Origin: Micromonospora sp. Llam0
Lineage (GTDB): Bacteria > Actinomycetota > Actinomycetes > Mycobacteriales > Micromonosporaceae
DNA: 64,000 nt
Direction: 5' to 3'
Assembly (NCBI RefSeq): GCF_003751085.1
Contig: NZ_RJJY01000002.1
Span: 2,542,001 to 2,606,000, forward strand
Positions 43,622 to 64,000 of the stretch are shown here, one piece after another. The notes below the pieces were generated by a model. It had not been told where the DNA came from, made no database searches, and saw only the letters and a program-made list of their open reading frames with translations. How positions within the stretch are numbered: the stretch's first letter is position 1; each line of letters begins with the position of its first letter. Both the position numbers and the translations under genes were made by a program.

Positions 43622-43629
43622 CAGGCGTC

Positions 43630-44460: not shown

Positions 44461-44497
44461 GCGACAAAGCCGGCCGCGCGGGGGTTGCGTAGACGCC

Positions 44498-45143: not shown

Positions 45144-45147
45144 GAGA

Positions 45148-46785: not shown

Positions 46786-46799
46786 AACTGCAGTCCTGT

Positions 46800-47520
46800 C
46801 TATGGGATCAGCTCAGCCACGGGCAGCGCCTCGTGCAGCCGGCCAGCGGCCAGGTCGTCGTGACGGATCACGAAACTCCCGTCACTTCGGTAACAGAACT
46901 CGTTGTCCACGGGAAAGCGGGCGAGCGACACCCACTCACTCGTCAGCCGGTGCGTCTCCTTCTCCACATGGGAATACCACTTCGCGACCGGGACGACGAT
47001 CTCGCCGGTCTTCTCCCGCCACGCGAGGGTCTGCTCCGCGATCCACTTGACCACCTCGGCGTCGGCGTACCCGCCGAGGTAGGCGCTCCGCGCGCAGCGT
47101 GGCGCTGACGTCGTACTGCTCGCCGACGATCGCGTGGCCGGTGGATCCTGCCGCCACCTCGGTATCGGTGCCGGCGGGCACGAACACGACCCGGCCGTAC
47201 CTTCGCTCCCCGGTGGCAGCGGCCTGCTCGTGGGCCAGGAAGAACAGCAGCGAGCCCGCTGCCGGCAGGCCGAAGCCGTCGACTCTTGGCAACGCCGCAC
47301 AGTCGACCGAAAAGATGAACGGCAACGGACCGACCCCGTCGGACGGCCAGTCCATGCCCACCGGCAGCCGGGGCAGCCCACCGAACTGCCCGACCGGCAC
47401 GCCGCCGGATCCCCCGCTCAACCGGATCGACAGACGGAGGTGCTCGGTGAACCGGCTGACCTCGTCGTCCGGGATGCCCAACGCGATCGCTGCATGACGA
47501 AACTGCCCCTGATGATCCAT
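46800..47520 (-). pseudogene. DUF1963 (YwqG-like) protein with one frameshift
   Basis: From ATG 47520 the first frame gives MDHQGQFRHAAIALG, FGGLPRLPVGMDWPSDGVGP (the DUF1963 hallmark) and GSLLFFLAHEQAA up to YDVSATLRAE. The second frame continues from about 47090 with SAYLGGYADAEVVKWIAEQT to the stop at 46800. Together they make one normal-length DUF1963 protein of about 240 residues, so a single-base indel near 47085-47100 breaks it. A sequencing error would be an alternative explanation. Confidence 0.75.
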
Positions 47521-47708
47521 GGCGCACCATGGTGGCACGAGGGCGAGCACGGCGACCGATGCCCCACGGTCCGTACGCACCGCCGCGGTGACCGGGTGCG
47601 CACATCTCAGCACGTCCGGACGGCTCCCCCGGCGGCGCCTGGACGCGCTCCGTGACACGCGTTTCGCGGCAGATCCGGGCGCCTTGTTGACCCGCGCTCC
47701 GTGGGTGA

Positions 47709-48170
47709 TCATGCCCGCTGGGCGGCCGCGCCGATCGCGGCGTGCAGGTCCCGTAGCGCCCGCTGTACGTCGCTGGCGGGCCGGGGGAGGGCGCCCTCGA
47801 CAGTGGCCAGGGCGGACAGGAAGTGCCGGCCTGCCGTGGTGTGAGCGTGCTGGCCTGCGTCGGTGAGCGTGATGCGGTACGACCGACGATCCTCTGGGTG
47901 TGGAACCTGCCGGACGTGCCCGCGCGCGACTAGTCGCTTGACGTGGCTGGAAACCGTCGTTGCCGGGGCGGACATCCACCGGGCGAGTTCGCTTGGGCTG
48001 ATCTCGCCGGCCTGGCGCAGTACGGAGTAGACGGCGAAGTCCTCGGCGTCCAGACCGGTGCCGGCCAGCGCGGTGTCCAGCAGTGCGATGGCGGCGCGGG
48101 CCGTGAGCCAGGTGTCGAAGAGCACGTTCGACGGATCATCACCCTTGACAGAACTGCTGCGATCTCGCAC
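47709..48170 (-). CDS. MarR family transcriptional regulator
   Basis: 153 residues with the MarR winged HTH: LARWMSAPATTVSSHVKRLVARG (recognition helix) followed by the wing HVRQVPHPEDRRSYRITLTDAG. Dimer helices at both ends. GTG 48170 is preceded by GGGAGAG. Divergent from a small membrane protein gene (48220); a 10-bp inverted repeat lies in between, and the left arm overlaps the start codon region, so it probably controls itself and its neighbour. Confidence 0.88.
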   Translation of the reverse strand: MRDRSSSVKGDDPSNVLFDTWLTARAAIALLDTALAGTGLDAEDFAVYSVLRQAGEISPSELARWMSAPATTVSSHVKRLVARGHVRQVPHPEDRRSYRITLTDAGQHAHTTAGRHFLSALATVEGALPRPASDVQRALRDLHAAIGAAAQRA

Positions 48171-48202
48171 TATCTCTCCCGGGGGCAGGTATTGCGAGAT
48201 CG
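48160..48202. promoter_or_regulatory. inverted repeat, predicted MarR operator
   Basis: CGATCTCGCA (48160-48169) and TGCGAGATCG (48193-48202) are perfect reverse complements. Extended to 19 bp, the two copies still agree at 16 positions, one facing each divergent gene. Confidence 0.6.
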
Positions 48203-48219
48203 TAGCATCGGAGGTTGTG

Positions 48220-48789
48220 GTGAAGGCGTGGTCCGTGATGAGCCGTGGCCGGGTCGTCGTAGCTATCTGGGTTCTCCATGGGATCAGCGCACTGGCCATG
48301 TTCGGCTGGCCCGGCCTGACCGGCGCGGTCTCCCGGGCCTGCCACGGGCGGAGCGCCCTGGACGTACGCAGCCACTGGACCGCCGCGGATGCACGCGATC
48401 TGGTCGCGGCCTGCGGTACCGAGGGACGGGCGGCCTATCTCCGGCTGGAATTGCTCGACCTCGTGTACCCGCTGCTCTGCGGCCTGGCCCTGCTGCTCGT
48501 AACATCCCTGTTGATCCGGCGCTTGCCGGGCCGGAGGTGGCGTCTCCTGCTGATCCCCGCAGTCGCGATGACCGTGCTCGACTACGGCGAGAACGCGGCT
48601 GTCTGGAATATTCTGTCGACTGGGCCCGCCGTCTGGGACCTGCCCGCACACCTCGGAGGGGCCGCCACCGCAGCGAAGCGCGCCGCAGGTCTCGTGGCCT
48701 ACCTCGCCGTACCGCTGCTTCTCCTCACCGTCGGCCTTGATCGGCTTCGAGTCCGGACTCGGGCCGGGGCTGCGGACTCTTCCCGGTGA
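48220..48789 (+). CDS. four-helix hypothetical membrane protein
   Basis: 189 residues with hydrophobic segments near VVVAIWVLHGISALAMFGW, LLDLVYPLLCGLALLLVTSLLI, RLLLIPAVAMTVLDYGENAAV and GLVAYLAVPLLLLTVGL. No family is recognised. GTG 48220 follows GGAGG (48210-48214). Probably the target of the divergent MarR regulator; a role in transport or stress is only a guess. Confidence 0.7.
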   Translation: MKAWSVMSRGRVVVAIWVLHGISALAMFGWPGLTGAVSRACHGRSALDVRSHWTAADARDLVAACGTEGRAAYLRLELLDLVYPLLCGLALLLVTSLLIRRLPGRRWRLLLIPAVAMTVLDYGENAAVWNILSTGPAVWDLPAHLGGAATAAKRAAGLVAYLAVPLLLLTVGLDRLRVRTRAGAADSSR

Positions 48790-49075
48790 GGGCACCGGCA
48801 GAGCCGATCAAGGTCTCATTCATCTCCGGCACCGTTCAACAGTCATGACTCCATCCGATCGCGGCGAACACTTCCGGAGTGACCGCACATCGGCACGACC
48901 GCACACCGATCGTCGCCGCGTTTCGTTACGCATCGTGACGATCGGATCAAGCGGATCCGTACGCTTGATCTTGATTCACGCCGGGGCCTACCGGTAAGCC
49001 TCGCACGGCTGCTCGCGTCGGCGCACGCAGGGGGCGAACCGACTTGGTACGGTCTGGTCGTGGAGTGGGCCGGCC

Positions 49076-49160
49076 TTCTGGCGCATCGTCGAAGGTGCCC
49101 GGGCCGAGGTAGGCAGTGACACCGAACGTGTCGCCCAGGCGCTGCTGCGTCGCCCTTCGC
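49076..49160 (+). pseudogene. DUF4240 N-terminal fragment
   Basis: FWRIVEGARAEVGSDTERVA followed by QALLRR matches the first helices of DUF4240 proteins (typically FWxxIExAR...). The remaining 100 or so residues are missing. A relic. Confidence 0.55.
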
Positions 49161-49464
49161 ACGTTGGCTCCGGCCGAGCTGACCGGCGAGACCCCTACCC
49201 GGCGGCGGTTTCCCAGGCTCACGACCTACCTGGACAAGAACCCGTGGACCGACCGTCCGTGGGGGCGCGCCACCAGCCGACCTCAACACGCACGCTGCGG
49301 CACGAGCGGATGCTGACGGAGCGCGACGATCCAGTAGCTACATCGATCGGCTTCTGCTTACTTGCACTGGTCGACCGGCTTGCGCGGCCATCAACCCGGG
49401 CCGGACGAGCGAGGCCGCCCGCGACCGCTGCACCGGTCCGTCGATCGCCCGAGCTTGCTTTTCG

Positions 49465-49500
49465 CGACAACCTGTCGCATACTTTTGCGACAGGTTGTCG
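49465..49500. promoter_or_regulatory. 15-bp inverted repeat, predicted TetR operator
   Basis: CGACAACCTGTCGCA (49465-49479) and TGCGACAGGTTGTCG (49486-49500), 6-nt loop. Each arm is itself palindromic (CGACA-ACC-TGTCG), so there are two adjacent dimer sites. A -10-like TATAGC follows at 49501. Located 72 bp upstream of the SnoaL-like gene. Confidence 0.7.
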
Positions 49501-49571
49501 TATAGCATCCACTGTCGCGGCGCTGCCCAGGTAGCCGTGGTGCGGTGACGCGGAGAGGAAGGGGCTGGGAG

Positions 49572-50045
49572 ATGAGCGCGCTCGCGGACCGCGCGGATCT
49601 GACGGAGTTGTTCGGACGTTACGCCGACATCGCAGACCGCCGGGAGTTCAACGGACTGCCGGGGCGGGTCTTCACCGATCCGCTGACGCTCGATTTCTCG
49701 TCGGTAACCGGCATTCCGCCGATGACGACGCCGTTGCGGGACTACGTCGAGATTCTGCGCGGTGCCTTCGCGCCCTTCGCGGCAACGCATCACGTCATCA
49801 CCGGCCATGTCGTCGATCTCGACGGCGACCGCGCGACGGTCCACGCACACGTCAGGGCTGAGCACTGGCTGTCAGAGGAGCTTGCCGCAGGCGGCCCCAA
49901 CCGTTGGCTGGTGGTGGGCTTCTACGACAACGAAGCGGTCCGCACCCCGGACGGTTGGCGCTTGACCCGCGTGCGGCTCACCGCGACCCACCAGGAAAAC
50001 TCTCATCTCGCGGGTGTTGCTGCCGGCACTGGACGCGCCACCTGA
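49572..50045 (+). CDS. SnoaL-like/NTF2-fold protein
   Basis: 157 residues: the helical start (LTELFGRYADIADRREFNGL), strands with TPLRDYVEILRGAFAPFAATHHVITGHVVDLDGDRATVHA in the middle and closing GFYDNEAVRTPDGWRLTRVRLTA are those of SnoaL_4-type proteins, which are cyclases, hydratases or small-molecule binding proteins. ATG 49572 lies after GAGGAAGGGG. It forms an operon with the TetR regulator 20 bp downstream; both probably respond to a small aromatic compound (inference). Confidence 0.8.
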   Translation: MSALADRADLTELFGRYADIADRREFNGLPGRVFTDPLTLDFSSVTGIPPMTTPLRDYVEILRGAFAPFAATHHVITGHVVDLDGDRATVHAHVRAEHWLSEELAAGGPNRWLVVGFYDNEAVRTPDGWRLTRVRLTATHQENSHLAGVAAGTGRAT

Positions 50046-50065
50046 CGCCAGGACAGAATCACATC

Positions 50066-50698
50066 GTGCCGCGGATACGGGGAGATAGCGTCCAGGAGCA
50101 CCACGAGATGGTGTGGGCCGAGATCACCAAGGCCATTCGGCAACTACTGACGGAACGCGACTACGACTCGATCAACATGGGTCACATCGCGGCCCGGGCC
50201 GGGATCGCACGTAACACCCTCTACAACTATGCCCCGGACAAAAGCGCGTTGGTACGGGCCGTGACCCACCGAGCGGCCACGCCCATGCTCGATCGGGTGG
50301 CCGCCATCGGTGCACGGTCCGCTGACTCCGCGACCGACCGGATGTTGGAGATCATCGGTACAGTTCTGGACGCGTGCACAGACCAAGCCCTGCAGGTGAT
50401 GTTCCGTCCGGGTTCCGGTCCGCTGGTCCAGGAGATACCCAAGGGGCCTGATGGTCCGTTCGAAGCCGTCATCGCCGAGGTCGAGAACGTCGTACGAGAT
50501 GGCATCACACGCGGCGAGTTCCGCGACGTCGGCGACGTGCGCCTCGCCGTGGAACTACTCTCCGGGATGATGCACGCTGGCGCCGTACGCATCACCCGGG
50601 ATCCGGCAACATTCACGGCCACCGTAGCCGCAGCGCAGGGGGCCATCCTCGCATCCCTCCGGAAACACCCGGACCGTTCAGACGTCGGGCATCGATAG
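50066..50698 (+). CDS. TetR family transcriptional regulator
   Basis: 210 residues. HTH at about residues 15-60 (IRQLLTERDYDSINMGHIAARAGIARNTLYNYAPDKSALV) and a helical ligand domain. GTG 50066 is used since it gives VPRIRGDSVQEHHEM in front of the first helix; AGGACA lies upstream. The double palindrome at 49465 is its likely operator, with the SnoaL-like gene as target. Confidence 0.88.
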   Translation: MPRIRGDSVQEHHEMVWAEITKAIRQLLTERDYDSINMGHIAARAGIARNTLYNYAPDKSALVRAVTHRAATPMLDRVAAIGARSADSATDRMLEIIGTVLDACTDQALQVMFRPGSGPLVQEIPKGPDGPFEAVIAEVENVVRDGITRGEFRDVGDVRLAVELLSGMMHAGAVRITRDPATFTATVAAAQGAILASLRKHPDRSDVGHR

Positions 50699-51053
50699 CC
50701 GACCACATCTGAACCTACCGAACAAACCAGGGCCCGCCCCGGCCCCGTTCCAGCACCGAGTAGACAGCAGCCAGAACGCTGCCTGGGTGTGGGTTGAGTG
50801 ACCGTGGCCGAGGTGAGCAGGCGCCACCGGTTGGTGGTCAGCTGCCGGTGGTGCTGGCCTGGGTGACGAAGGTGGACCAGGCGGTGGGGGTGAAGGTGAG
50901 GGTGCCGCCGGTGCGGTCTTTGCTGTCGCGGACCAGTACCTGGCGGGGCAGGTTCTGCCGAGCACGCATATCTGGCACAGATTCCTTCCCGGGCATTTGC
51001 TGGTAGTGCAACAATTCGCGTCACCTGCAGTCGTCTGCGAAACCTGGGACCGC
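50699..51053. other. intergenic region between TetR gene and defence operon
   Basis: Contains only the DUF397 remnant at 50838-50996. No terminator could be identified for either flanking operon. Confidence 0.5.
50838..50996 (-). pseudogene. DUF397 remnant
   Basis: The 52-residue frame ends LVRDSKDRTGGTLTFTPTAW...TTGS, nearly the same as the C-terminal half of the intact DUF397 protein at 16067. Its N-terminal half (with WRKSSxS...CVEVA) has been replaced by unrelated sequence, and no XRE partner is present. It is a broken copy at the edge of the defence operon. Confidence 0.75.
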
Positions 51054-54000
51054 TTACTCGGAGACAGCAGTCTTTGTGCTCCCGCCATGCTGGGTGATCC
51101 GGGGGCGGATCTGTGCCTTGACGGCGCTGCGGGTGAATGCCGCGTCGGTCGCCTTGCCGGACCAGATGTATGCCTCCCCGCGCCCGAGCGCGGCCATCTT
51201 GGCCGGAGTCAGATCGGCGAGAGCTGCGTTGGCCTTCTGCAGGTGCTTCAACCAGGCTGGCGAGTTGAACTTGTGCAGGATCAGTTGGTTGGAAAGCTCG
51301 ATCAGCGCTACTGGCACTGAAGTCGGCTCCTGACTCGCAACCAGGATGCTCATCCCCTTGTGCCGCATCTCCCGTACGCTCTCGATCAGGCCGGCGGCGA
51401 GGTCTGGGCTGTCAATGAACTTGTGTGCCTCGTCGAAGACAACGAGTTTGTTGAACCGTCGCCCGTCGCTGGTGGCTTCCGAGAAGAGCTCCATGAGTAC
51501 GACGAACAGGCCGAGGGCCTCATCCTTTTCGATCAGTTCGTCGCGGAGGTCGACGATGACGACTCGGCCGGGGCGGACCAGGTCCTGGATGCGGACGGTG
51601 TCGTCGATGTAGTCGGCAGCGAGGTCCAGGCGCTGATGGGCGAGCTGCTTGATGGGATCCGACAGGGTCGACTGGTCGACTCCGGCGCGCAGGACACCGA
51701 TCGACAGGTTGTCGCGGTGCGCCTTCATGATCCTACCGAGCTGGCGGATGTAGGTGGACTGGTTGCCGACCGCGCCCATGAGGAATCGCCAGTGCGCGGC
51801 ACGTAGCTCCGTGGAGCTGAACTTGAGTGCCCGCAGTTCAATGCCGGGATACTCGCTTCGGCGCTGCTCCAGCTGGTCTTCCGGAACCAGCATCAGTACG
51901 TCACCGAGCCCGGCCGGCTCGACACCGTAGCGCTCCCGCAGGCGCTGCACCTGCGCCTCGTCGGAGTTTGGTGCGACCAGGCTGGTGAACTCCGGCACGT
52001 AGTTCAGTATGGCGCTGTAGTGAAAGATGATTGTGGCCAGTGGCTGCGGTAGGTGGTTGACCGGCGGCGTGGCGAGGGAAGCGGCTTCGACGATGGTGCC
52101 CATCGTGTAGCTCTTCCCGGTGCCCTGCACCCCGAACAGGCTGATGGTGTGCGTCTCGTTGAGGTCGAGCGCGATGTGCCGACCGCCGTACTCGGCGAGG
52201 ATTCCGTACTGTGGCGACGGACGTGCCGCGCCGAGGTAGATGTCTGGCTGGATCGACTGGGCCGATGGGTCGGCCACCGCCAGCTGTCGGTGGTCCGTTG
52301 ACTCCGGCGGTTGCGGCCGGTCGGTCGACTCCTGCGGTTCCACCGGGTGCGCCGGTTCCGACCGGGGCCGGACATCATCCGGCGCACTGCCCAGATTCGC
52401 TTGCGTCGCATCGGCCGCATCGTTGAGATCGTCGGCGGCCGCTGGGTCGCGGTCGTCGGCGGGGCGGCCTTGCGGCACGACATGGTCGCGGGCCGGTGCC
52501 CGGAACGCTGCCTGTGGCAGCCGTGCGACCGTGGACGGCCGCGTCGCCAGAGTCCCCTGGGAGCGGGTGTCGGTGTGAGTGGCGGCCGCCAGCACCGGGT
52601 CGGTGACGATGCCGCCGAGTAGCTCGTCGATGACATCGCGGCCGATGCGGTGAAACTCGACGTCGCTTTCGACGTCTTGGTCGGTGCCGCTGCCTCGTAG
52701 GTCGAAGATGAGCCCGGTCTGGGTGAAGTTCAGCTGGTATCCCCAGTCGAGGTGGTCCAACATCCAGCGAGCCTCGTCCGCGATCGGACCAGCATCGTCG
52801 ATGATGCCGTGGCGGACCGCGCGACCGAGATAGAAGCGCAGCAGCGCGGCGAGCTCCGCGTTGCGGCTTGCCCGATCGGGGCGATCGGGCTGGTGGTGCG
52901 CGGGGTCGAAGCTTTCAGCAAGGACGTCCCGGCTGCGGCTGAGCTGCTCGATGATCTCGCTGCGGACCTTCTGCAGGTCCGCGATGCTGGTCAGCGTGCT
53001 GTGACACTTCACCTCGACGAGTCGACAGGTGATAGTGCGTCGCTGTGCGTCGAGGCTGAACAGGGCCAGGTCGGTGCGCCGTAGTCCGATGCTCTCGGTG
53101 ACCTCGTCTGCTCTGCGGCGAGCCTCCCGGTACAGCTCCAGGTGGGAATCGAGGGGGACGAGGATCTGGTTGCCCAGGACCGCTTGATGCTCCAGGTAGA
53201 GCCGGGCGAGCGCCAGTCCCAGGACTTCGGTCCGCTGGTTCGGCGCGGTAGACGCGATCTTGAAGGCGAGTCGGCCGGACAGCAGCCGGAGCTGGTCGAA
53301 GAAGGTCCCAGCATGTCTACGGTCGACCTGAAAACCGTGCTGATTCATCATGGGATGCAGCAGGGCGCGCAGCTCGTCCACCGATCTGGAACTGACCACC
53401 AGTTGGTGGCCGAGGCCGTCCGGTCCGGTGCTGGCGAAGTCGATGATGTAGTCGGGGCGGCGTGAGCTGCCCGGGCTGTCGAAGTACTCGACGCCCAAGG
53501 TCCGGTCGACGGTGATGACCCAGTCGCTGCATCGGTGGGCTTGATGGAGCAGGCTGCCGTCGGCGGCGGTGAGGTTCAGCGTGATTCGTGGCACCAGGCC
53601 GGTTCCCGCTTCGCCGGTGGCTACTGTCGCCGCGGCGACCGAGATTACCCGGGGGAGTGCGGTGAGCAGGTCGGAATACTCCTCGGCCCCCGGGATGTCC
53701 CGCCCGGGTCCGTGCCGGGGCTGTTTGTGCCAGGCCACGATGCCGTCGGCGGTGTCGACGTAATCGACGGTCAACTCTTGGACAAGTCCGTGTACGGGTG
53801 CGGTCGAGTCGGGCCGGGCCGGGCCGACGCCGAGGTCTTCACCGCTGAAGGCGTCGAAGAGCAGCGTGACATGTGCGGTGTGCCGGCTTGTCGCGGAACG
53901 AAAGTCGTTCAGTGGCAGCACCGCTACGGCGAGTTTGGGTGCCAGCCCCGCGCTTCTCGGTGTGCAGAACGTCTCCGCTTCGGCGGCGGTGCTCCACTCG

Positions 54001-56549
54001 CCGGTGAGTAGTTGAGCCAGTGCCGCACCGGTGCCGGCTAGCTGCGGGTCTGCGGCGAACAGTCGCAGGTCGTACGAGAGGTGTCGAAGTGGTTTGCGCC
54101 GTTCCAGTTCGATGAGGGTGTCGGCCAGGAGTTCGGCGCGCCCCGGGTTGACTACGCACAGGACCAGAGTGGCGACGTACGGGTGCATCCGGACGTATCG
54201 CTCGATCCGGTCGGCGAGCTGCCCGGCCGTGACCGTCAGTGCCGCATTCGGGGCGTCGGGCACGCCGAGTGCTGCCGCCACGTCGGCCAACAGCGTATGC
54301 GGGTCGCCGGTTTCCGCTGGTAGGCAGGCTCCCCAGTAGGTGGCGAGGTCGGCGGTGGCGGCGCTTAGCCGGCCGTCGGCGCCGACGATCATCAGCGGGA
54401 ATCCGGTCGGCGTCAGTGCGAACAGCCGCTCGGCCGCTGCCCGGATCCGGTCCTTTCCACTGACCGTGGCCGGGCTCTCGGCTGGCGCGTCGGTCGACGC
54501 TTCAGCCAACCAGTGCCGACCGAGCCGCGCCCAGGTAACCATCCACAGTAGGCGCAGTGGATGGGTTGGAGCGACCAGGGTGAGCTGGTGCAGGTTGCCG
54601 CGGATGTCCTGGTGCTCCACCACGACGGTGTCGATCTGCAGCAAGGTGGCCAGCCGCCGGGTCAGCTCGGTCTCGGCGACCCGCCCGGTGCTGTGTAGCG
54701 ATCCGTTGAGCAGCTCGGTGTATGCCTCCGCGTAGGCGAGCACGGCGGCGTCGATCCGACTCAGGTCGCGGCCGGCGACGACCATGGCGTCGTCGCCGCT
54801 GATCGCGGTCAGGACAGCGGCCCGGGTGGCGAGGAACGTGTCGAGCCGGTCTGAGGAAGCCAACGGGGGGTGCGCGGGCTCGACCTGGACGAGGCGGGGT
54901 GGCTGCCCGGCCGCTGTGGTCAGCTGTCGTACGGCGAACTGGGTGGGGTCGGCGAGGATCTGCCGCTCCAGTTCGGCGAGGATCGGAGCGAGTGGCACCT
55001 GCGCGGTGCCGTGCGCGCCGAACTCGGCCTCGACGACCGTGCGGGCCGGGTCCTTCCAGGACGTCTGCTGGCAGCTGACGCCTTGCCCGTCGCGTCCGTC
55101 CACCGATGCCTCGAACGCCAGCCGGAGCAACTCCTGGGTCACTCCGACGGAACGGCGGGTGCGAGGTGGTGCCGGTGGTTCGTCGAGGTCGTCGTCCGCG
55201 ACGACATAGAACCGGTCGCTTTCGTTGTCGGCGTGCCGGTCCGGCACCTCGCCGCCGTGGGCGTCGTGGTGACCCGCGGGGTGGCCTGTCTCCACCGGCA
55301 GCGGCACGCCATCGCTGTCCATCGGTGTCACCCGCAGGTAGTGCCAGCCGTTGTCGAGCCGGGCGGAGCGCAGCCGTTTCAGCACGGCCTTGTACGTCTG
55401 CCGCCGGTTGGTGCCGACCTTGACGACGGCGTGTACGCCGGTCGGGCCGGACTCTTCGGACATCAACTGGACGGTGAAGGAGGTCAGGCCACGGACCTGC
55501 CGAGGGTCCGGGGTCACCTCGAACGCCACCGGCAGCTGGTTGTGGCCGGAGGCGCCGCCCGGCAGGTACGCCTGTCCGGTGATGGTGTCCAGGACCGGAT
55601 GGTCGCGGTGTTCGGGGCGTCCGCCGGCGCGCGGCAGGGCCAGCTCGGCGAGGGTGATGCGTACGGCCGTTGCGACCCGGTCCTGCGGCAGCGGCCAGCG
55701 GTGGAAGGACAATCCCCAGTTGGCCCGGTCCACGACGATCCGGCGGGTCCAGTTGGCGGAGGCGTCCCGGCCGGCGTCGGTCAGCAGTTCGGCGACTCTC
55801 GTGCGGAACGCGGCATCGGTGAGCCGCAGGTCGACGACGCGTTGCCGGACCGACCGGTCGGCCCGGCTCAGCGCTTGGACGGTCCGGGCGTTGCGGGTGG
55901 CCCGGGTGCGGACCTGGGTGGGGTCGGTGAACAGTTCGAAGTCGGGGATGAGGCCGAGTTCGAACAGCGCGCCGCCGGCGGCCTGCGGGTCCCGGTCGTT
56001 GTGTTCGATGGTGAGCAGGAAGCGGGCGCGCCGCAGCGGGCCGGCGTCGACCCGACCTGGCTCGACCGTCTGCTCGTCGAGCACGCCGAACAGTTCGCCG
56101 ATCGCGGTACGCAGCTCGTCGGGCAGACCAGCCTGTAGCCGGGTGACGAGTTCCTGGTAGACGTCGCCGGGTTCACTCTGTTCAAAGGTGGCGACGCCGA
56201 AGGAGTCTTCGGCGCTGGCGTGGGTGCCGGGTGGGATGAACACCAGCAGCGGCGGGCGTTGGCGGCCATCGGCGTCGGGGTTGCGCAGTTCGACGAGCTT
56301 GGTGCCGCTGATGGCGACGTCGTCGGGCACCTGCGGCGGTTGCCCGAGGACGTGGATCTGGGCGGCGGTGCCGGTGGCGCCGCGCAGCCGGCGGCAGAGC
56401 CTGGCGGCCAGCGGTGCGCCGAGGTCGGTCACCCGGACGCAGTGCCCGGCCGTGCGGGCGGCGAGCAGCGCGGCGAACCGGGGCACCAGGACGCGTTCGA
56501 GGGCTTCGTCGAGGTCGGTGTCGGTGACTTCGCGTAGTCCGGTGCTCAT
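51054..56549 (-). CDS. mad8: MADS ATP-binding protein MAD8-like (C-terminal HerA-type ATPase)
   Basis: 1831 residues. The first about 1330 residues are a large region without a clearly named domain; a nuclease-like stretch may lie around residues 1150-1190 (LALFSLDAQRRTITCRLVEVK). A Pro/Asp-rich linker (about 1350-1440) joins the C-terminal HerA/FtsK-like ATPase: Walker A GVQGTGKSYT (about 1475), Walker B NKLVVFDEAHKF (about 1703), LVASQEPTSVP sensor and EAYIWSG. HerA-type motors form hexamers on DNA and partner with nucleases in several anti-phage systems. Last gene of the operon; its ATG overlaps the preceding stop (ATGA). The MAD8 label comes from gene order and domains, recalled from the described MADS system, not from a search. 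Confidence 0.82.
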   Translation of the reverse strand: MSTGLREVTDTDLDEALERVLVPRFAALLAARTAGHCVRVTDLGAPLAARLCRRLRGATGTAAQIHVLGQPPQVPDDVAISGTKLVELRNPDADGRQRPPLLVFIPPGTHASAEDSFGVATFEQSEPGDVYQELVTRLQAGLPDELRTAIGELFGVLDEQTVEPGRVDAGPLRRARFLLTIEHNDRDPQAAGGALFELGLIPDFELFTDPTQVRTRATRNARTVQALSRADRSVRQRVVDLRLTDAAFRTRVAELLTDAGRDASANWTRRIVVDRANWGLSFHRWPLPQDRVATAVRITLAELALPRAGGRPEHRDHPVLDTITGQAYLPGGASGHNQLPVAFEVTPDPRQVRGLTSFTVQLMSEESGPTGVHAVVKVGTNRRQTYKAVLKRLRSARLDNGWHYLRVTPMDSDGVPLPVETGHPAGHHDAHGGEVPDRHADNESDRFYVVADDDLDEPPAPPRTRRSVGVTQELLRLAFEASVDGRDGQGVSCQQTSWKDPARTVVEAEFGAHGTAQVPLAPILAELERQILADPTQFAVRQLTTAAGQPPRLVQVEPAHPPLASSDRLDTFLATRAAVLTAISGDDAMVVAGRDLSRIDAAVLAYAEAYTELLNGSLHSTGRVAETELTRRLATLLQIDTVVVEHQDIRGNLHQLTLVAPTHPLRLLWMVTWARLGRHWLAEASTDAPAESPATVSGKDRIRAAAERLFALTPTGFPLMIVGADGRLSAATADLATYWGACLPAETGDPHTLLADVAAALGVPDAPNAALTVTAGQLADRIERYVRMHPYVATLVLCVVNPGRAELLADTLIELERRKPLRHLSYDLRLFAADPQLAGTGAALAQLLTGEWSTAAEAETFCTPRSAGLAPKLAVAVLPLNDFRSATSRHTAHVTLLFDAFSGEDLGVGPARPDSTAPVHGLVQELTVDYVDTADGIVAWHKQPRHGPGRDIPGAEEYSDLLTALPRVISVAAATVATGEAGTGLVPRITLNLTAADGSLLHQAHRCSDWVITVDRTLGVEYFDSPGSSRRPDYIIDFASTGPDGLGHQLVVSSRSVDELRALLHPMMNQHGFQVDRRHAGTFFDQLRLLSGRLAFKIASTAPNQRTEVLGLALARLYLEHQAVLGNQILVPLDSHLELYREARRRADEVTESIGLRRTDLALFSLDAQRRTITCRLVEVKCHSTLTSIADLQKVRSEIIEQLSRSRDVLAESFDPAHHQPDRPDRASRNAELAALLRFYLGRAVRHGIIDDAGPIADEARWMLDHLDWGYQLNFTQTGLIFDLRGSGTDQDVESDVEFHRIGRDVIDELLGGIVTDPVLAAATHTDTRSQGTLATRPSTVARLPQAAFRAPARDHVVPQGRPADDRDPAAADDLNDAADATQANLGSAPDDVRPRSEPAHPVEPQESTDRPQPPESTDHRQLAVADPSAQSIQPDIYLGAARPSPQYGILAEYGGRHIALDLNETHTISLFGVQGTGKSYTMGTIVEAASLATPPVNHLPQPLATIIFHYSAILNYVPEFTSLVAPNSDEAQVQRLRERYGVEPAGLGDVLMLVPEDQLEQRRSEYPGIELRALKFSSTELRAAHWRFLMGAVGNQSTYIRQLGRIMKAHRDNLSIGVLRAGVDQSTLSDPIKQLAHQRLDLAADYIDDTVRIQDLVRPGRVVIVDLRDELIEKDEALGLFVVLMELFSEATSDGRRFNKLVVFDEAHKFIDSPDLAAGLIESVREMRHKGMSILVASQEPTSVPVALIELSNQLILHKFNSPAWLKHLQKANAALADLTPAKMAALGRGEAYIWSGKATDAAFTRSAVKAQIRPRITQHGGSTKTAVSE

Positions 56550-58138
56550 CGCGGTGCTCCGTCGGACCCGAGGCGATAACGCGGGGTGATGGTCTGGGTG
56601 AGGTAGGCGTCGGAGAGGTCGGTGTAGAAGCCGATCTCGCGCAGCCGGGCGACGAACGCGGCCCGGTTCTGTCGTAGCGCCCGGTGGTCGGTGATGCTGG
56701 GCTGGCCGAAGCCGTCACCGGGGGGCAATTCGTCGATGTAGATGCCGTACCGGTCGCGCAGCAGCGTAAGGAACTCGTCGACCCGGATCGCGGCGGTCCG
56801 AAACGCGCCGGTGCCGTCGGGGTGGAGCAGGGCCAGCTGTAGCAGCACTTCGAGCAGCCGGCTGTCGAGGATGAATCGGCGTTGCCCGCGACGCGGCTGG
56901 GCGAGCATCGCGCCGGGGCGGTGCTTGAGCAGCAGGCTGTCGAGGCACTCGGTCAGCCGGGTGCGGTGATGTTTGACCCGGTACGCGGTGATGATCTCGA
57001 TGTAGGTGGTGAATGGGTCGAGTTTCAGCTGTAGCAGGTCGGCGATCTGCGGGTCGAGGCCGTTGTCCGCACCGGATGCCGATTCCACTACGCGGGCCAG
57101 CCGCGCCTCGGCGAACCGGCCCCGGTCGGCCTTGTGCGCCGGGCCGAGCAACGACAACAGTTGGTCGACGGGGAACATGTCGCCGACCGGCTTGCGGAGC
57201 TTGCCGATTTTCACCAGGTGCCAGCCGAAGTCGTCGAGCTTCTTTACGGTGAAGGTGGCCTGCACGAACGCCGGGATCCGGTCGTACCAGATCTGGGCGC
57301 TGGTCTCGGCGAGCCGGGCGGCGGGTGTGTCGGGCACGCCCGCGACGTCGAGGAAGAATCCGCCACCGAATGCGACGCGGTCGCCGGCCGTCCAGATCGG
57401 CAACGTCTTCATGATTCGGAAGTGGTACCGCGCCAGGTGGAAGGCGAACAGGATCTTGAGGTGGTCGACCAGCACCGACCGGGGGACGACACCTCGGTGG
57501 TAGAGCAGCCGGCCGACGTCGTGGGTGAGCAGTTCGGCGGCGGCGGTGTCCAGCGGTGGGTAGATCTTGCGGGCCCGTTGGTCCTCCCGGTCGGTGACGG
57601 CACCCTTGGCCGATTCGCAGAGGTTGATCAGGGTCTGCGTCTCGACGTCGATCTCGGTGGCGTCGCCGTCGCCGGTACGCGGGTCGACTCCGGCGAAGAA
57701 GAAGCTTTTCAGCAGTGGCAGGACAGTGCCTTGGGTCCTGGAGCCGTGGTGGATCATCCGGTAGAGCTGTTCGTCGGCGTTGCGCGGCCGGGACCGGCGG
57801 GCTACCCGGAAACGGTAGGTGAAGCCGTGCAGCGGACGTAGCCCGGCGATTGCCTGCCCCGGCTTGCCCCGGTTGACCAGGTCGAGCAGGTGGGTTTCCA
57901 GCCAGCGCGCGGTGACGTCCGGGTCGAATCCAACGAACCGGTCGGGAGAGTTGGCGATCTGCTCGACGAAGGCGTCGACGCTCAGATCCGCCCCCGAACC
58001 GACCAGCACGCTGGGCGAGCCATTGTACCACAGCCGGGGCAGCAGGGCGGTGAGCACCCGGTCCATGTCGATTTGGGTGTAGTCGAGGTAGCTGACCGCC
58101 GGGTGGCGGAACTCCTTGTCGTCCCTGTGCAGCCCCAC
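56546..58138 (-). CDS. mad7: MADS protein MAD7-like, unknown function
   Basis: 530 residues, soluble, helix-rich, beginning VGLHRDDKEFRHPAVSYLDY. No catalytic motif is evident; segments such as DRVLTALLPRLWYNGSPSVLVG and RILFAFHLARYHFRIMKTL suggest an alpha-helical scaffold or DNA-associated protein. The GTG at 58138 has a perfect GGAGGAG 5 nt upstream and overlaps the stop of the kinase gene (TAGTG). Position between the kinase and the HerA ATPase genes is that of MAD7 in the described system. Confidence 0.75.
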   Translation of the reverse strand: MGLHRDDKEFRHPAVSYLDYTQIDMDRVLTALLPRLWYNGSPSVLVGSGADLSVDAFVEQIANSPDRFVGFDPDVTARWLETHLLDLVNRGKPGQAIAGLRPLHGFTYRFRVARRSRPRNADEQLYRMIHHGSRTQGTVLPLLKSFFFAGVDPRTGDGDATEIDVETQTLINLCESAKGAVTDREDQRARKIYPPLDTAAAELLTHDVGRLLYHRGVVPRSVLVDHLKILFAFHLARYHFRIMKTLPIWTAGDRVAFGGGFFLDVAGVPDTPAARLAETSAQIWYDRIPAFVQATFTVKKLDDFGWHLVKIGKLRKPVGDMFPVDQLLSLLGPAHKADRGRFAEARLARVVESASGADNGLDPQIADLLQLKLDPFTTYIEIITAYRVKHHRTRLTECLDSLLLKHRPGAMLAQPRRGQRRFILDSRLLEVLLQLALLHPDGTGAFRTAAIRVDEFLTLLRDRYGIYIDELPPGDGFGQPSITDHRALRQNRAAFVARLREIGFYTDLSDAYLTQTITPRYRLGSDGAPR

Positions 58139-61100
58139 TACGACTCCTCCCGTGGGGTCACCGGCTCCATCCGGACCTGCCCACCCGGCTGGCGGAGCAC
58201 CCGCCACAGCTGCTGCCCGGTCTCGGTGAGCAGCAGCTCCTGGTACGGGGCGGCGGACAACTCGTGTTTGAAGATGGTCAGGCCGAGGTGCAGCCCTTGG
58301 CGTTCGGCGATGCCGGGTAGGTAGCCGTCGCGCAGCCGGGTGAGCAGCTCGAACAGGTCGAGCCGGATCCGCAGGGTGACCCGATGATCGGCAGCCCCCC
58401 GGTAGCCGAGCACCAACTCCTGCGCGCCACCCTCCAGGTAGGGCGACTGTGGCTCGCCGTCGGCCAGCAGCGTCAACTGTCCGGCGGGGAACAGCCGGTA
58501 GCTGCGGATCTTGCCGCCGGGCACCACTCTGACCTGCAACGCCAGCGCGTCAGCGAGCCGTGCCGCGTCGCCGAGACCTTCGCTGCGGTTGAGCGCAGTG
58601 ATCAGCTCCGGGAGCCGCGACGGCAGTTCGTCCGGCCGGACCAGCAGGTTCAGGAAGTCAAGGGCCGAGCGGTACGGCAGCATCCGCCGGGATCGTTCGT
58701 CGTCGACGCATTCGAAGTAGAACCGGCGACGGGCGGCGGCGAGGTAGCGGCGATGCGTCTCGGCGGTGGCCGGGTCCATCGCCGCGCCGCGCGGCAGGGC
58801 GTCGACCAACCGCTGCAGCATCCGCAGGTCGTATTCGCCGCGTTGGTCGACGGTCATCAGGGCACGTCCGGCGTCCGGGCCGACGTAGTCGAGCCGCCGG
58901 TCCAGGCCCGGGTCGGCGACTGTGGCGACGTCGACCTGTGCCAGCAGGTTCAGTAGCCGGTCGGCACCGGCGACCGGTCCGGCCCAGCTGTTGAAGTAGA
59001 AGCCGTCGAGCACTTCGGTGAGCTGGTCGCTGGCGTACAGCTCGTGGATGTCCGCGCAGTCACGACCGGAGGTCAGCATGAAGGCCAGCGCCGACTGGAC
59101 GTCGCGGACGGTGATGTGCGCGATGCCGCGTAGCTCGGTCAGCCGGTAGAGCATCCGCAGCCGTGCGGCGATCTTCGGCCCGAGGGCGGGGTGCGCGAAG
59201 GTACGGGCGTTGTGCCGGACGTAGCACGTGTCGACGAGGGCGCACCCGCCGCACGCCTCCCACCGCTGGGGTGCGGTCATCCGGGCCAGCATCCGGTCGA
59301 AGACCGCGCCGCCCAACTCGTCGGAGTCGTCCAGCAGACTGCGGCGGTTGAGGTTGATGACCACGACACCGGGGTCCACGACGGTGGCGGCCGCGCCGGC
59401 CGCCGGCTCCGGCCGGTCGGTCAGGCTGGTCAGCACCTGGTCGGCCAGGGCGGGAAACTGTGCCCGGTGGGTGTCGAGGAAGTCGACCAGCCGGCCTTCG
59501 TTGATCGCGATCAGCCGGGTCTCGCCGGCGACGCCGGCCAGGTCGACACCGGCGAACGGCGCGAAGAAGTCCAGCAGCACGTCGTCGTTGTGTTTGTCGG
59601 ACTCGTCCTGACTGCCGTCGTGGTTGGTGCGTAGGACCAGGCCGGTGGGGGTGGTGAAGTCGGCTCCGTTGCCGCGCCGCCCCGGGGTGTGTGGCCCGTC
59701 CTTGGCGGCGACCGTCAACAGCCGTTCCAGGAACGCGGTCTTGCCGTCCCCGGCGTTGCCGGTGATGACGACCAGCCGGTAGGCGCCGGCCAACACATCT
59801 GGCGTGAGCTTGTCGTCCAGCGCGGTGGCCACGTACAGGTCGAACGCCGGGTTGCCGCCGGCGCGGGTGCCGGCGTTGCTGCGGATGCTCTGACTGTAGA
59901 GGGTCTGCAGGTGCCCGACGAACGGGTTGCTGCCGACCGCTGTCGGTGCGGGTGGCGGGAGCACCGGGTCGACCGGCTCCGGCCGGACCGGTTGGAACAC
60001 CTCGTCGCCGATGGCGGCCAACGCGTCACGGAACTGCTGGGCGCTGGTGTACCGGTCGCTGCGCAGCGGGGCGATGGCGGTCGACAGGATGTGGACGAGC
60101 TGGTCGGAGAGGTTGCCCAGGCCCGGCACCTGGCGCGGGTCGTCGGGCCGCCGCCCGACAGGGGCAAGGCGATCGGAGTACGGCCACTGCCCGGTCAGCA
60201 CCTCGTACAGGGTGAGCCCGAGGGCGTAGACGTCCCGGTCGATGAGGTCGGCCCGGGTGACCTGCCCACCGGTGGCGAAGTCCGGCGGGGCGTACCGCGC
60301 GGTGCCGCCGGTGCGTGACAGGCTGGAGTCGTCGGAGACCGCCACGTTGAAGTCGAATATTTTGCAGCCGCTGTCGGTGCGCAGCAGGTTCGCAGGCTTG
60401 ATGTCGCAGTGGTAGATGCCGTTGTCGTGCAGGTAGGCCAACCCGTCGGCGACGTCGACCCCGAGCCGCACCGTGTCCGCCGGCCCCAGCGCCCGCTGGC
60501 TGACCAGGTCGGCGACCTGCTGTCCGTCGACGTACTCGAAGACCAGGTACGGGATCTCGCCGCCGTCGAGGTAGTCGGCGCTCTCCACCTTGACCACGCT
60601 GGGGTGCGCCGGCAGCCGCAGCAGCAGTTGATACTCGACCCGCAGCCGTTCGACTACCGACTCGCGGTCCCGGTGCACGATCTTCACCGCCCGGTCGAGG
60701 CCGGCGAGATTGTCGTACGCCTGGTAGGTGGTGCCGTAGGAGCCCGGCTTGCCGAGCCGGCGGCGGATGGTGAACTTGCGGGTCAGCTGGTGGCCCGGCG
60801 GCAGATCACGGTAGTCGGGTTGCGCTGGAGATGGCCCGGCGGCTGCCTCGGCCAGTCGGGTGTTGCCGGGCCGGATCAGCACTGCCAGGTCCCGCAGGGC
60901 ATCGGCGGCGGTGGGTCGGGCCGACGGCTTCAGCGCACACATCCGGCCCAGCAGTTCGGCCAGCGCCGGGCTGAGCCCGGCGGCGGTCATCACCGTCTGC
61001 GGCAGCACACTGCCCTTGCGGGTCTGGTCATCGGTGCTGGCGAACGGCAACTCGCCGGTGAGCAACTGGTAGGCGATGACCCCGGCCGCGTACACGTCGG

Positions 61101-62253
61101 ACGCCTGGCTCATCTCCTGCGCCCGCCCCTGGCATTCGGGGGCGACGTAGGCCGGGTCGAGGATGTCGGCCAGCCGGTGGACCACCGAATGCTCCCGTGA
61201 CCCGGGTGGCCGGGCGTAGTCGAACCCGGTGAGTACGCCCCGGTTGTCCCGGGTGACCAGCACCGACGTAGGGGTCAACGCCCGGTGCAGCACGGCGTGG
61301 GTATGTGCGTGGGCGAGCCCGCGCAGCAGGTCGGCGACGACCCGCAGCCGCACGTCGGCGCTGAGCGCCTGCCGTGAGTCGGTCAGGTGCACGGTCAGCG
61401 CCTGACCGTCGACGTCGTCGAGGACGAGGACGAACTGTCCTTCGTCGTCGGTGGGGAAGAAGTCGCGCCGGCCCACGACGTGCGGGCTCGGCGGCATTCT
61501 GGTCAGCACCGCGTAGGCGTTGCCGATCGCGTGGCGCTGCGCTGTCCGCTGCTTGGCGGGCAGGAACGGGTCGGCCCGGTAGACCCGCAGCAGCACGGTT
61601 TCCGACCCGGCGAAGGTGGCGTTGCGGGCCCGGTACTCGGTGACCTCCTCGTCGCCGCCGAGCCGTTCGCAGACCTGCCAGTTGCCGAACAGGCGTGGCC
61701 CGGTGCGCCGGCGGACCCCGCCGCCGAGGGCGTTCAGCACGGTCGCCTGATGGTCCCGGATGTCGCGGATCATGCCGGGCCGGATCCGGGCCGGGTCGTC
61801 GAGCGCCGGGATCAGGCCGGGCAGGTCGACGACGTCGATGGCGTCGGCGTCGGCGCGGTCGCTGGGGTCGATCAGCTGGGCGTCCCGACCGACCAGGACG
61901 ACGAGTTGGCCCACGTAGACCTGGGACAGCTCGGGCCGGGCCCGTTCCAGGACGCCTTTGAGCGCGCGGGCGTGCGACCGGATCTTGCGTACCGGGGAGG
62001 CGAAGGAGCCACGGCCCTTCGGGTACCACCGGACGCCGGCGACGTCGATACGCCCGACGGTGCCTTTGACGTCGATCAGGTGGACCGCCCGGGTGGTCAC
62101 CACGACCAGGTCCACTTCGTACGCCGCGCCGTGTACCGGGATTTCGATGTTGTGCAGCACGAACCAGTCGTCGGGAGCGTTGTCCCGCAGGTGTGCGATG
62201 ACCAGGCGTTCCCCGTCGTTGGCCGGGGTGGACCCGCCGACGATCTCAGCCAC
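58138..62253 (-). CDS. mad6: MADS protein kinase MAD6-like: NERD, pseudokinase, kinase, P-loop
   Basis: 1371 residues. Residues 1 to about 150: NERD nuclease-related domain (YEVDLVVVTTRAVHLIDVKG, Asp48, Asp61, Lys63). About 185-460: a kinase-like domain with degraded catalytic motifs (HRALTPTSVLV near 323 in place of HRD, GFDYA near 344 in place of DFG). About 495-760: a second kinase domain with Lys in RAVKIVHRD (about 521), YHCDIKPANLL (about 617), IFDFNVAV (DFN in place of DFG) and GTARYAPPDF. About 825 on: a P-loop ATPase (VVITGNAGDGKTAFLERLL, about 834) and a long helical C-terminus with a four-Cys cluster (CGGCALVDTCYVRHN). In MADS the kinase is a core defence component. GTG 62253 starts 2 bp after the specificity gene. 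Confidence 0.88.
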   Translation of the reverse strand: MAEIVGGSTPANDGERLVIAHLRDNAPDDWFVLHNIEIPVHGAAYEVDLVVVTTRAVHLIDVKGTVGRIDVAGVRWYPKGRGSFASPVRKIRSHARALKGVLERARPELSQVYVGQLVVLVGRDAQLIDPSDRADADAIDVVDLPGLIPALDDPARIRPGMIRDIRDHQATVLNALGGGVRRRTGPRLFGNWQVCERLGGDEEVTEYRARNATFAGSETVLLRVYRADPFLPAKQRTAQRHAIGNAYAVLTRMPPSPHVVGRRDFFPTDDEGQFVLVLDDVDGQALTVHLTDSRQALSADVRLRVVADLLRGLAHAHTHAVLHRALTPTSVLVTRDNRGVLTGFDYARPPGSREHSVVHRLADILDPAYVAPECQGRAQEMSQASDVYAAGVIAYQLLTGELPFASTDDQTRKGSVLPQTVMTAAGLSPALAELLGRMCALKPSARPTAADALRDLAVLIRPGNTRLAEAAAGPSPAQPDYRDLPPGHQLTRKFTIRRRLGKPGSYGTTYQAYDNLAGLDRAVKIVHRDRESVVERLRVEYQLLLRLPAHPSVVKVESADYLDGGEIPYLVFEYVDGQQVADLVSQRALGPADTVRLGVDVADGLAYLHDNGIYHCDIKPANLLRTDSGCKIFDFNVAVSDDSSLSRTGGTARYAPPDFATGGQVTRADLIDRDVYALGLTLYEVLTGQWPYSDRLAPVGRRPDDPRQVPGLGNLSDQLVHILSTAIAPLRSDRYTSAQQFRDALAAIGDEVFQPVRPEPVDPVLPPPAPTAVGSNPFVGHLQTLYSQSIRSNAGTRAGGNPAFDLYVATALDDKLTPDVLAGAYRLVVITGNAGDGKTAFLERLLTVAAKDGPHTPGRRGNGADFTTPTGLVLRTNHDGSQDESDKHNDDVLLDFFAPFAGVDLAGVAGETRLIAINEGRLVDFLDTHRAQFPALADQVLTSLTDRPEPAAGAAATVVDPGVVVINLNRRSLLDDSDELGGAVFDRMLARMTAPQRWEACGGCALVDTCYVRHNARTFAHPALGPKIAARLRMLYRLTELRGIAHITVRDVQSALAFMLTSGRDCADIHELYASDQLTEVLDGFYFNSWAGPVAGADRLLNLLAQVDVATVADPGLDRRLDYVGPDAGRALMTVDQRGEYDLRMLQRLVDALPRGAAMDPATAETHRRYLAAARRRFYFECVDDERSRRMLPYRSALDFLNLLVRPDELPSRLPELITALNRSEGLGDAARLADALALQVRVVPGGKIRSYRLFPAGQLTLLADGEPQSPYLEGGAQELVLGYRGAADHRVTLRIRLDLFELLTRLRDGYLPGIAERQGLHLGLTIFKHELSAAPYQELLLTETGQQLWRVLRQPGGQVRMEPVTPREES

Positions 62254-62255
62254 GC

Positions 62256-63662
62256 TCAGCGCGCCGCCTCTCGCACCGCCTTGTCGAGCAGAGCAAACGC
62301 CTCGTCCTCCTTGCGGTCCGCATCGTCGCGGTCACGATACGCCTGCCGCACCACCCCGGCGATCCGTTCCCGGTCGGCCGCCACCACCATCGGCACGGGT
62401 AGATCGGCGCGCAACGATTCGTGGATGTCCTGCTGTTTGCCGCCGGTGCTCATCGAGCGGAGCATCCGGAACGCCACTTCGGACCGGAGGAACGCGAACA
62501 GGTACGCCCCCGGCACCTGCGGATCCCCCGAGACCACCCGAAGAAAATGCTGAGTGTAGACATTTTCGAGCCACGTTCCTGTGACGAACACCGGCCGGCA
62601 AAAGACTTCGGTCTCACCGAGTGTGCCCTGAGCAGCAACAAGGACAGTTTCATCCTTCGCATAGATGTCAGCCGGTGCTTCGTTGGGATTGATCCACCTA
62701 CCCTCGGGCCGGAGCCAGAAGCCCTGCCGTTGCCCGATCAGCCTTGCCCCATGTTCGGGGTTAGCGTCAACCCGCTTGAATCGGACTCCGGAACCCAGAT
62801 AGCCGCCTTTGCAGATGTTGCCGAGGGGGTGGTGGGGGACGGAGCGGAGGGTGTCGATGACGCGGCGGGCGCGGGGGGAGTAGTTGAGAGCACGCAGCGA
62901 CAGCGCGGTGGGTCGCTCGATGGTGAAGCCGAGGTCCCGCTCCTGGTCGTGCCAGCGCAGGTCGAGCAGCTCGGGGATGCCGGCGCTGACGAACAGGTCG
63001 CGGGTCGCTTCCCGGACGCCGTCCTCGTAGCGCTGGCGCAGCTGCATCGCCTCGCTGATCAGGGCGTCGATCCGGTCTTCGACGCCGCCACCGAAGCGGG
63101 GCACCGGCAGATCGGCGACGTGGCTCGGCTCGATGTGTCTGACGCTGGTGCCGTAGATGCCGCCCTTGATGATCGGAATGCCGAACGGGCTGGCCAGGAA
63201 GGTGTAGAGGTAGCCGGCCGGGATTCGGGCCAGATCGGGCACCACCCGCATGACGTGTTCGCTGCAGGCCGCCCCGGCCATGCTGAGCCGGGCGTAGGTG
63301 ACCCGGCCGGCGGTCATCCCGGAGCGGGTGACCAGGGTCCAGCCCGGCTCCAGTGGTAGGTTCGGGATCTTCTCGAATGAGCGCTTGGTGATCCTCGGCA
63401 GGTTGGTCAGGTCGGCCTCGAAGATGTCGGCGCTGCCGAGGAACGGCACCCCGTGTGCCGGGTCGGTGGTCCACTCGCGCGTCGCCCGACCGGAGTGGAA
63501 GATCCGTGCGGTGACCGTGTGCAGCGGCTCGGCGTGCGGCATCCGACCCAGGTACTTTCGGGCGGCGTAGGCGTCCGAGACGTACGGCCCCGGGTCGAGG
63601 CGGGACCCCTGCTCGGCCAGCCAGCTCGCCTGGACGGGATTGTCTGGGCTGGCAAGCTTCAC
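62256..63662 (-). CDS. mad5: MADS specificity subunit MAD5-like (type I HsdS-like)
   Basis: 468 residues with two target-recognition-like halves. The first contains SEHVMRVVPDLARIPAGYLYTFLASPFG and HIEPSHVADLPVPRFG; the second contains WLENVYTQHFLRVV, PGAYLFAFLRSEVAFRMLRS and SLRADLPVPMVV. These tandem 'visible boundary then helix' patterns are characteristic of HsdS. It would direct the system's methyltransferase and perhaps the defence complex to a bipartite DNA motif. The GTG start overlaps the stop of the upstream gene (GTGA). No methyltransferase is within the window; it should lie beyond the right edge. Confidence 0.85.
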   Translation of the reverse strand: MKLASPDNPVQASWLAEQGSRLDPGPYVSDAYAARKYLGRMPHAEPLHTVTARIFHSGRATREWTTDPAHGVPFLGSADIFEADLTNLPRITKRSFEKIPNLPLEPGWTLVTRSGMTAGRVTYARLSMAGAACSEHVMRVVPDLARIPAGYLYTFLASPFGIPIIKGGIYGTSVRHIEPSHVADLPVPRFGGGVEDRIDALISEAMQLRQRYEDGVREATRDLFVSAGIPELLDLRWHDQERDLGFTIERPTALSLRALNYSPRARRVIDTLRSVPHHPLGNICKGGYLGSGVRFKRVDANPEHGARLIGQRQGFWLRPEGRWINPNEAPADIYAKDETVLVAAQGTLGETEVFCRPVFVTGTWLENVYTQHFLRVVSGDPQVPGAYLFAFLRSEVAFRMLRSMSTGGKQQDIHESLRADLPVPMVVAADRERIAGVVRQAYRDRDDADRKEDEAFALLDKAVREAAR

Positions 63663-64000
63663 AGCTCCTCCTCGGGAAACCAGTCACGTAGCGTGTCGCG
63701 CAGGGTCAGGAACGCCGGGTCGACGCAGCCCTTGACCGAGATCCCGGCGGCCAGCCGCTTGAACAGCGCCGGGGACCGGTCAACCCGGTAGCCGTCGCGG
63801 CGCAGGTCGCGGTAGCGGTCGCGTAGATGTTCGAGGGCTTCCTTGGGCCGCGCCGGTTTGGCGAGCTCCGGCGGCCAGAAGCCACTGCTGGCCAGGATCT
63901 GCCGGAAGTTGGGCGGGCAGTTGAGCGCCTGGGCGACCCGGGGGTTGTCCTGCCAGACCCAGGCTTCCAGCTCTGGCTCGATCACGATGACCGCGAACTC
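63659..64000 (-). CDS. mad4: MADS protein MAD4-like, C-terminal part (runs off right edge)
   Basis: The last 113 codons of a gene whose frame is open to the right edge. The visible start, EFAVIVIEPELEAWVW, is a hydrophobic strand followed by acidic residues, as in Toprim/DUF4276-type small proteins (inference); the rest is helical with a basic middle (EALEHLRDRYRDLRRDGYRV). It overlaps the next gene by 4 bp (TGA/GTG), confirming the operon. Position just before the HsdS-like gene is that of MAD4. Confidence 0.7.
   Translation of the reverse strand, partial: EFAVIVIEPELEAWVWQDNPRVAQALNCPPNFRQILASSGFWPPELAKPARPKEALEHLRDRYRDLRRDGYRVDRSPALFKRLAAGISVKGCVDPAFLTLRDTLRDWFPEEEL

Follow-up and report, generated by a model that had tools for sequence, protein, structure and literature searches.

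The closest described relatives of the locus reported here are the methylation-associated defence system (MADS; Maestri et al. 2024, 10.1016/j.chom.2024.07.005), with which it was compared through citations and family models, and the DndFGH/DptFGH systems (PMC10853773). The way in which MADS restricts DNA is listed as unknown in a 2026 review (PMC12904381). DndFGH is reported to nick and translocate DNA (PMC11662687), and its link to phosphorothioate modification is often absent (PMC10853773). We analysed a 64,000-nucleotide stretch of Micromonospora sp. Llam0 (hereafter the window; positions 2542001-2606000 of contig C2, 2.67 Mb, in a genome of 8.9 Mb on two contigs) and found at its right-hand edge an ordinary new member of MADS that comprises MAD2-MAD8 and lacks only MAD1, the small regulator. 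Its MAD6, MAD7 and MAD8 are homologous to DndF, DndG and DndH, and their catalytic motifs are conserved. The abstract of the original MADS paper reportedly mentions predicted nuclease, ATPase, kinase and methyltransferase domains; the present host and insertion site are, to our knowledge, new for MADS. With a probability of about 0.75, we propose that this acquired block works as a two-part restriction-modification system whose MAD6-MAD7-MAD8 arm is of the DndFGH type.

The MADS operon and its core

MAD2 to MAD8 form one operon, in the order of the published numbering and in a single orientation, and the same order is seen in the MADS of a Piscinibacter plasmid. Genes to the right of the window edge are given in extended window coordinates, continued along contig C2:

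51054-56549, minus strand: MAD8, 1831 aa; methyltransferase-like fold, PD-(D/E)XK motif and HerA-type ATPase; DndH homologue
56546-58138, minus strand: MAD7, 530 aa; DndG fold
58138-62253, minus strand: MAD6, 1371 aa; NERD, pseudokinase, kinase and DndF-like core
62256-63662, minus strand: MAD5, 468 aa; HsdS-like specificity subunit
63659-64303, minus strand: MAD4, 214 aa; the window holds only the C-terminal part (63659-64000)
64332-65630, minus strand: MAD3, 432 aa ATPase; Pfam AAA_21; beyond the window
65627-67720, minus strand: MAD2, methyltransferase of about 697 aa, start uncertain; NPPF; Pfam N6_Mtase; beyond the window

All seven proteins pass the NCBI equivalog cut-offs (NCBIfam bits/cut-off: MAD2 993/720, MAD3 582/420, MAD4 273/160, MAD5 567/400, MAD6 766/460, MAD7 598/410, MAD8 218/175), and PADLOC agrees with the MADS calls (mad8 4.6e-42, mad5 3.5e-38). 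A sequence-only reading of the window had recognised MAD4-MAD8 in its five minus-strand frames and expected a methyltransferase within about 8 kb to the right. Each of the five matches the corresponding family, and MAD2 lies 1.6 kb past the edge; five co-oriented, overlapping long frames of this kind are far beyond chance. That reading also placed MAD1, MAD2 and MAD3 on the minus strand past 64000, where MAD2 and MAD3 were found and MAD1 was not. Its statement that the family is already described is borne out by the family models and by public sources in which actinobacterial MAD7 and MAD8 are named. The close spacing that it reported for all junctions (overlapping or at most 2 bp apart) holds inside the window, with overlaps of 4 bp for MAD4/5, 1 bp for MAD6/7 and 4 bp for MAD7/8 and a 2-bp gap for MAD5/6; beyond the edge, MAD2/3 likewise overlap (4 bp), but 28 bp separate MAD3 from MAD4. 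MAD7 starts at a GTG that overlaps the TAG of MAD6, while its longest frame begins at 58207.

Ten MADS loci were compared by tblastn: those of Llam0, genomes G041, G158, G149, G069 and G127, Frankia (L023), and Piscinibacter, Hymenobacter and Bacteroides plasmids. MAD2, MAD5, MAD6, MAD7 and MAD8 were detected in all ten; MAD3 and MAD4 were both detected in six (Llam0, G158, G149, G127, Frankia and Piscinibacter). The core of MADS is a methyltransferase, a specificity subunit and the MAD6-MAD7-MAD8 trio, and MAD3-MAD4 is an optional pair. In the relatives search, the PADLOC mad7 model matched 8 of 299 genomes, Llam0 included, and none of the six others of the genus. Six of these eight carry MADS, and the other two (G008 and G163) carry a MAD6/7/8-like trio, with MAD2 and MAD5 not found in the stretches taken. 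DndC was found in none of nine genomes searched, and phosphorothioate is therefore unlikely to be the mark.

Likeness of MAD6, MAD7 and MAD8 to DndF, DndG and DndH

The domains of MAD6 and MAD8 are placed as follows:

61894-62220, minus strand: NERD nuclease-related domain, MAD6 residues 12-120; Pfam NERD 1.3e-16
58141-59925, minus strand: DndF-like P-loop core, MAD6 from residue 777; Walker A, N-x-D, N in Walker B, four-Cys insert
53370-54413, minus strand: methyltransferase-like fold, MAD8 residues about 713-1060; [NDS]PP[FYW] motif absent
52944-53072, minus strand: PD-(D/E)XK site, MAD8 residues 1160-1202 (D1160, E1179, K1181, Q1202)
51063-52181, minus strand: HerA-type ATPase, MAD8 residues about 1457-1829; PADLOC mad8 4.6e-42; PDB TdpA 1e-5

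MAD6 had been described from the letters as a NERD, double-kinase and P-loop protein, which stands, and its P-loop part can now be identified further as DndF-like. This core matches SspF (2.8e-28), DndF (2.7e-6) and, by profile, DptF (E 1.2e-22), and it has the Walker A, the acidic strand 2 and the Asn in Walker B that are given for DndF cores in PMC10853773. The kinase part matches Pfam Pkinase (2.3e-56), and in eight of ten MAD6 the HRD motif of the first kinase no longer has its catalytic Asp. DndF variants with NERD and with tandem inactive and active kinases have already been described, and such extras were read as back-up effectors (PMC10853773); NERD-kinase variants of DndF have also been likened to PglW (PMC12839542).

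MAD7, previously set down as an unknown protein of 530 aa, keeps that length but not its anonymity: it has the DndG fold, as shown solely by fold comparison. A sequence search of PDB gave nothing up to E 10, with a single sequence or a profile, and a protein search with DptG as the query returned three proteins. The structure alignments used 39 of 120 MAD7 homologues and 35 of 120 MAD8 homologues.

The giant MAD8, of which only the HerA-type ATPase had been picked out, has that domain and, in addition, a nuclease motif and a methyltransferase-like fold. By profile, it matches DptH at E 1.1e-13. The nuclease residues are invariant in all 112 sequences aligned and line up with the EVK of DptH; no separate PDB match was obtained for the nuclease fold, for which the motif is the evidence. 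The 112 sequences are the window protein and 111 of 120 homologues, after exclusion of eight sequences shorter than 1600 aa and of P0001, a near-copy of the window protein; the 120, many of them actinobacterial, were the nearest among 930 with E values of at most 0.001, which in turn came from the 7998 candidates that shared most words. The motif alignment adds three plasmid MADS of other phyla, four trio proteins (those of G008 and G163 are incomplete) and two DptH.

The likeness to DndFGH/DptFGH thus extends from the gene order F-G-H, the DndF core motifs and the DndG fold to the make-up of the large protein, with its motif-less methyltransferase-like fold, PD-(D/E)XK site and HerA ATPase (PMC10853773). 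The systems differ in that MADS encodes an HsdS-like subunit and an N6-type methyltransferase alongside the trio, that DndC was not found in the nine genomes, and that the sequences are too distant for the NCBI DptF, DptG and DptH models. A tie between MADS and DndFGH was not found in the literature searched, from which the original MADS paper lay apart, and in the text of PMC10853773 neither 'MADS' nor 'HsdS' occurs. Archaeal mixed-class genes similar to MADS, phosphorothioate systems and BREX are noted in PMC13321033.

Several results weigh against our reading. The profile match of MAD7 to DptG is weak (4.6, then 33.6 to 55.4 with more sequences), and the Rhizobium MAD7 homologue alone gives no DptG match (1.0 and 1.4). 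The N-terminal 550 residues of MAD8 give no profile alignment with two DptH; the N-terminus of DndH carries inactive SWI2/SNF2 and beta-sandwich domains. By profile, the HerA part of MAD8 aligns with DptH only in part. For the MAD8 piece with the methyltransferase-like fold, Foldseek alone had no match at E 0.001 or better. Among the NCBIfam hits, neither MAD6, MAD7 and MAD8 nor any other protein of the window has a match to the NCBI DptF, DptG and DptH models, and the locus is therefore not filed as DndFGH. The NCBIfam MAD1 model gives six matches in the Llam0 genome, none over the cut-off and none near the operon. This model is over its cut-off in only two of eight MADS genomes or records, namely the Piscinibacter plasmid and G041, where the match lies next to MADS, and not over it in Llam0, G158, G149, G069, G127 and the Frankia metagenome-assembled genome; we therefore do not treat MAD1 as defining for MADS. 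Among 14 control genomes it matched three, none over the cut-off. The PADLOC mad1 model, a general helix-turn-helix model that matches 14 of 14 controls, was not used. Nor were the PADLOC DndH hits, which occur in 23 of 200 genomes but also in 6 of 14 controls, by way of the HerA part. The NCBIfam DptH model was uninformative (0 of 198 genomes, 0 of 14 controls).

Insertion site and neighbouring genes

On entering a Micromonosporaceae chromosome, the MADS block came to lie between two DUF397 genes arranged in tandem. Its acquisition, within a variable region, is indicated by the intact site in G005, the ends of the block in G149 and the gap in G006. The flanking features are:

50829-50954, minus strand: 3' remnant of the second DUF397 gene, at the left edge of the inserted block; 92% direct repeat of 67839-67964
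67848-68036, minus strand: resident DUF397 gene; Pfam DUF397; beyond the window
68033-68815, minus strand: resident XRE/DUF5753 gene; Pfam HTH_31, DUF5753; beyond the window

G005, a genome of the same genus, has no MADS at this place; there, two tandem DUF397 genes, both intact, come after an XRE gene. Rightwards from 67843, Llam0 shares 95.7% identity with G005 across 5149 columns. The second DUF397 gene of G005, the one that the inserted block has left broken in Llam0, matches the remnant at 50833-50954 with 92.6% identity. These two matches are 202 bp apart in G005 vs 16,888 bp in Llam0. Because the two DUF397 copies are similar to one another, the alternative pairings score only slightly lower (89.2% and 90.7%) than the one adopted here. 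The right-hand boundary of the insertion is clean. On the left-hand side the match to G005 is confined to the DUF397 remnant, and the flanks otherwise differ, with no match for 44811-50832 in the G005 stretch and no counterpart there for most of 35310-50832. A 20-kb stretch of G006 has nothing corresponding to 36459-68148 of Llam0, and by comparison with both genomes the zone to the left of MADS (36460-50832), which the sequence-only reading had called a gene-decay zone, is part of a variable region. The MADS of G149 is 87% identical in DNA over 51059-68010, ending at the MAD8 stop and within DUF397. Seen from the host, comparison with near relatives reveals the gain of an entire defence operon at a single place. 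The Llam0 genome is 8.9 Mb vs 6.7-7.6 Mb in the six others of the genus listed.

The MADS genes include no recognisable integrase or transposase. A tRNA as the insertion site was rejected, since ARAGORN found no tRNA in the window or in the eight loci scanned. Recombination genes do occur near MADS elsewhere. In G041 (L025:2953-5761), genes for a DUF2637 protein and a tyrosine integrase lie about 0.3 to 2 kb beyond MAD8, the integrase at a distance of about 290 bp, which suggests that this MADS is carried by an integrative element. A serine recombinase lies about 4.5 kb from the MADS of G127, and TnsA, TniB and TniQ are annotated downstream of MADS on the Piscinibacter plasmid.

It is conceivable, if doubtful, that the resident XRE-DUF397 pair took over the regulatory role of MAD1 for this MADS. 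MAD1 is absent here, the pair lies directly upstream of MAD2 in the same orientation, and G149 likewise has DUF397 just upstream of MAD2, preceded by a DUF5753 remnant; such pairs regulate antibiotic production in Streptomyces (PMC10364602). However, G005 has the pair at the same place without MADS, so the pair is resident, and G158, G069 and G127 also lack MAD1, yet no DUF397 is listed near their MADS. A general rule that MADS lands beside DUF397 was dropped after a search of seven MADS genomes: the two are adjacent only in Llam0 and G149, and in G041, G158, G069 and G127 the nearest listed DUF397 is at least 29 kb away or on another contig; the Frankia contig could not be matched in this count. 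Llam0 has 68 DUF397 matches vs 7 to 36 in six other MADS genomes searched.

Proposed mechanism and alternatives

We propose that MAD2, which keeps NPPF and the N6_Mtase domain, and the HsdS-like MAD5 would mark host DNA by adenine methylation at a two-part site. MAD6, MAD7 and MAD8 could then form a DndFGH-type complex that patrols DNA and senses missing methylation. The HerA part of MAD8 would serve as a motor along DNA, and DNA contact might be made by MAD7, a putative reader with the DndG fold, together with the methyltransferase-like part of MAD8. The PD-(D/E)XK site of MAD8 would nick or cut unmarked DNA. Roles as triggers or back-up effectors may fall to MAD3-MAD4, the optional ATPase/Toprim-type pair, and to the NERD and kinase domains of MAD6.

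At the level of the family, we lean, with less confidence than in the reading of this locus, towards the view that MADS restricts DNA with a DndFGH engine that has exchanged phosphorothioate for adenine methylation as its licence. A single nuclease complex that scans and translocates would then have been combined in evolution with several self-marks, namely sulfur in Dnd, adenine methylation directed by HsdS in MADS and other methylases on a Rhizobium plasmid. MAD6/7/8-like NERD-kinase trios in the same order are found on plasmids of Rhizobium anhuiense and R. phaseoli (L079:3570-18961, L094:9790-20506). In R. anhuiense the trio is followed by two other DNA methyltransferases and a phospholipase D-family gene; no such genes are listed for R. 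phaseoli, where the gene table may be incomplete. This trio may be one more case in which the engine has been combined with a different mark. We regard the methylation-licensed DndFGH reading of the family as the part most worth specialist attention: if it is true, the engine is not tied to sulfur-marked DNA, and MAD6-MAD8 offer named residues to mutate and a characterised relative from which assays could be borrowed.

An unlikely alternative is that another effector harms the phage or the cell (abortive infection), either the NERD and kinase domains of MAD6 or MAD3-MAD4, and that the DndFGH-like parts only bind or scan DNA. The NERD D and (D/E)xK are kept in all 14 NERD-bearing relatives aligned (read by eye), the second kinase keeps HxD in all ten MAD6, and MAD3/MAD4 resemble ATPase-Toprim pairs, a group of systems among which MADS is named (PMC12409363). 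Yet MAD3 and MAD4 both went undetected in 4 of the 10 loci compared by tblastn, and the MAD8 nuclease residues are invariant in all 112 sequences. We consider it very improbable that the locus is instead a type I-like restriction-modification system or a relative of BREX/Pgl: MAD2 and MAD5 do match PADLOC type I and II restriction-modification models (the MTase_II model PDLC03318, 5e-202, outscores mad2, 7.7e-79), and MAD6 shares NERD and an inactive and an active kinase with PglW of type 2 BREX (PMC12839542), but all seven MADS models are passed, MAD6 reaches 202.5 bits against a PglW cut-off of 990 and has a DndF-like C-terminal half where PglW has wHTH/STAND, and no HsdR, PglX or PglZ is over its cut-off among the proteins scanned with NCBIfam.

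Two neighbouring genes of other MADS deserve mention. The Bacteroides finegoldii plasmid carries a protein phosphatase 2C gene (L082:19633-20298) that overlaps MAD8 at its end and whose product is a possible counterpart to the MAD6 kinases. In G069, a restriction gene of the GmrSD type (L031:7727-10078), encoding a Schlafen AlbA_2 domain, lies 2.6 kb beyond MAD8.
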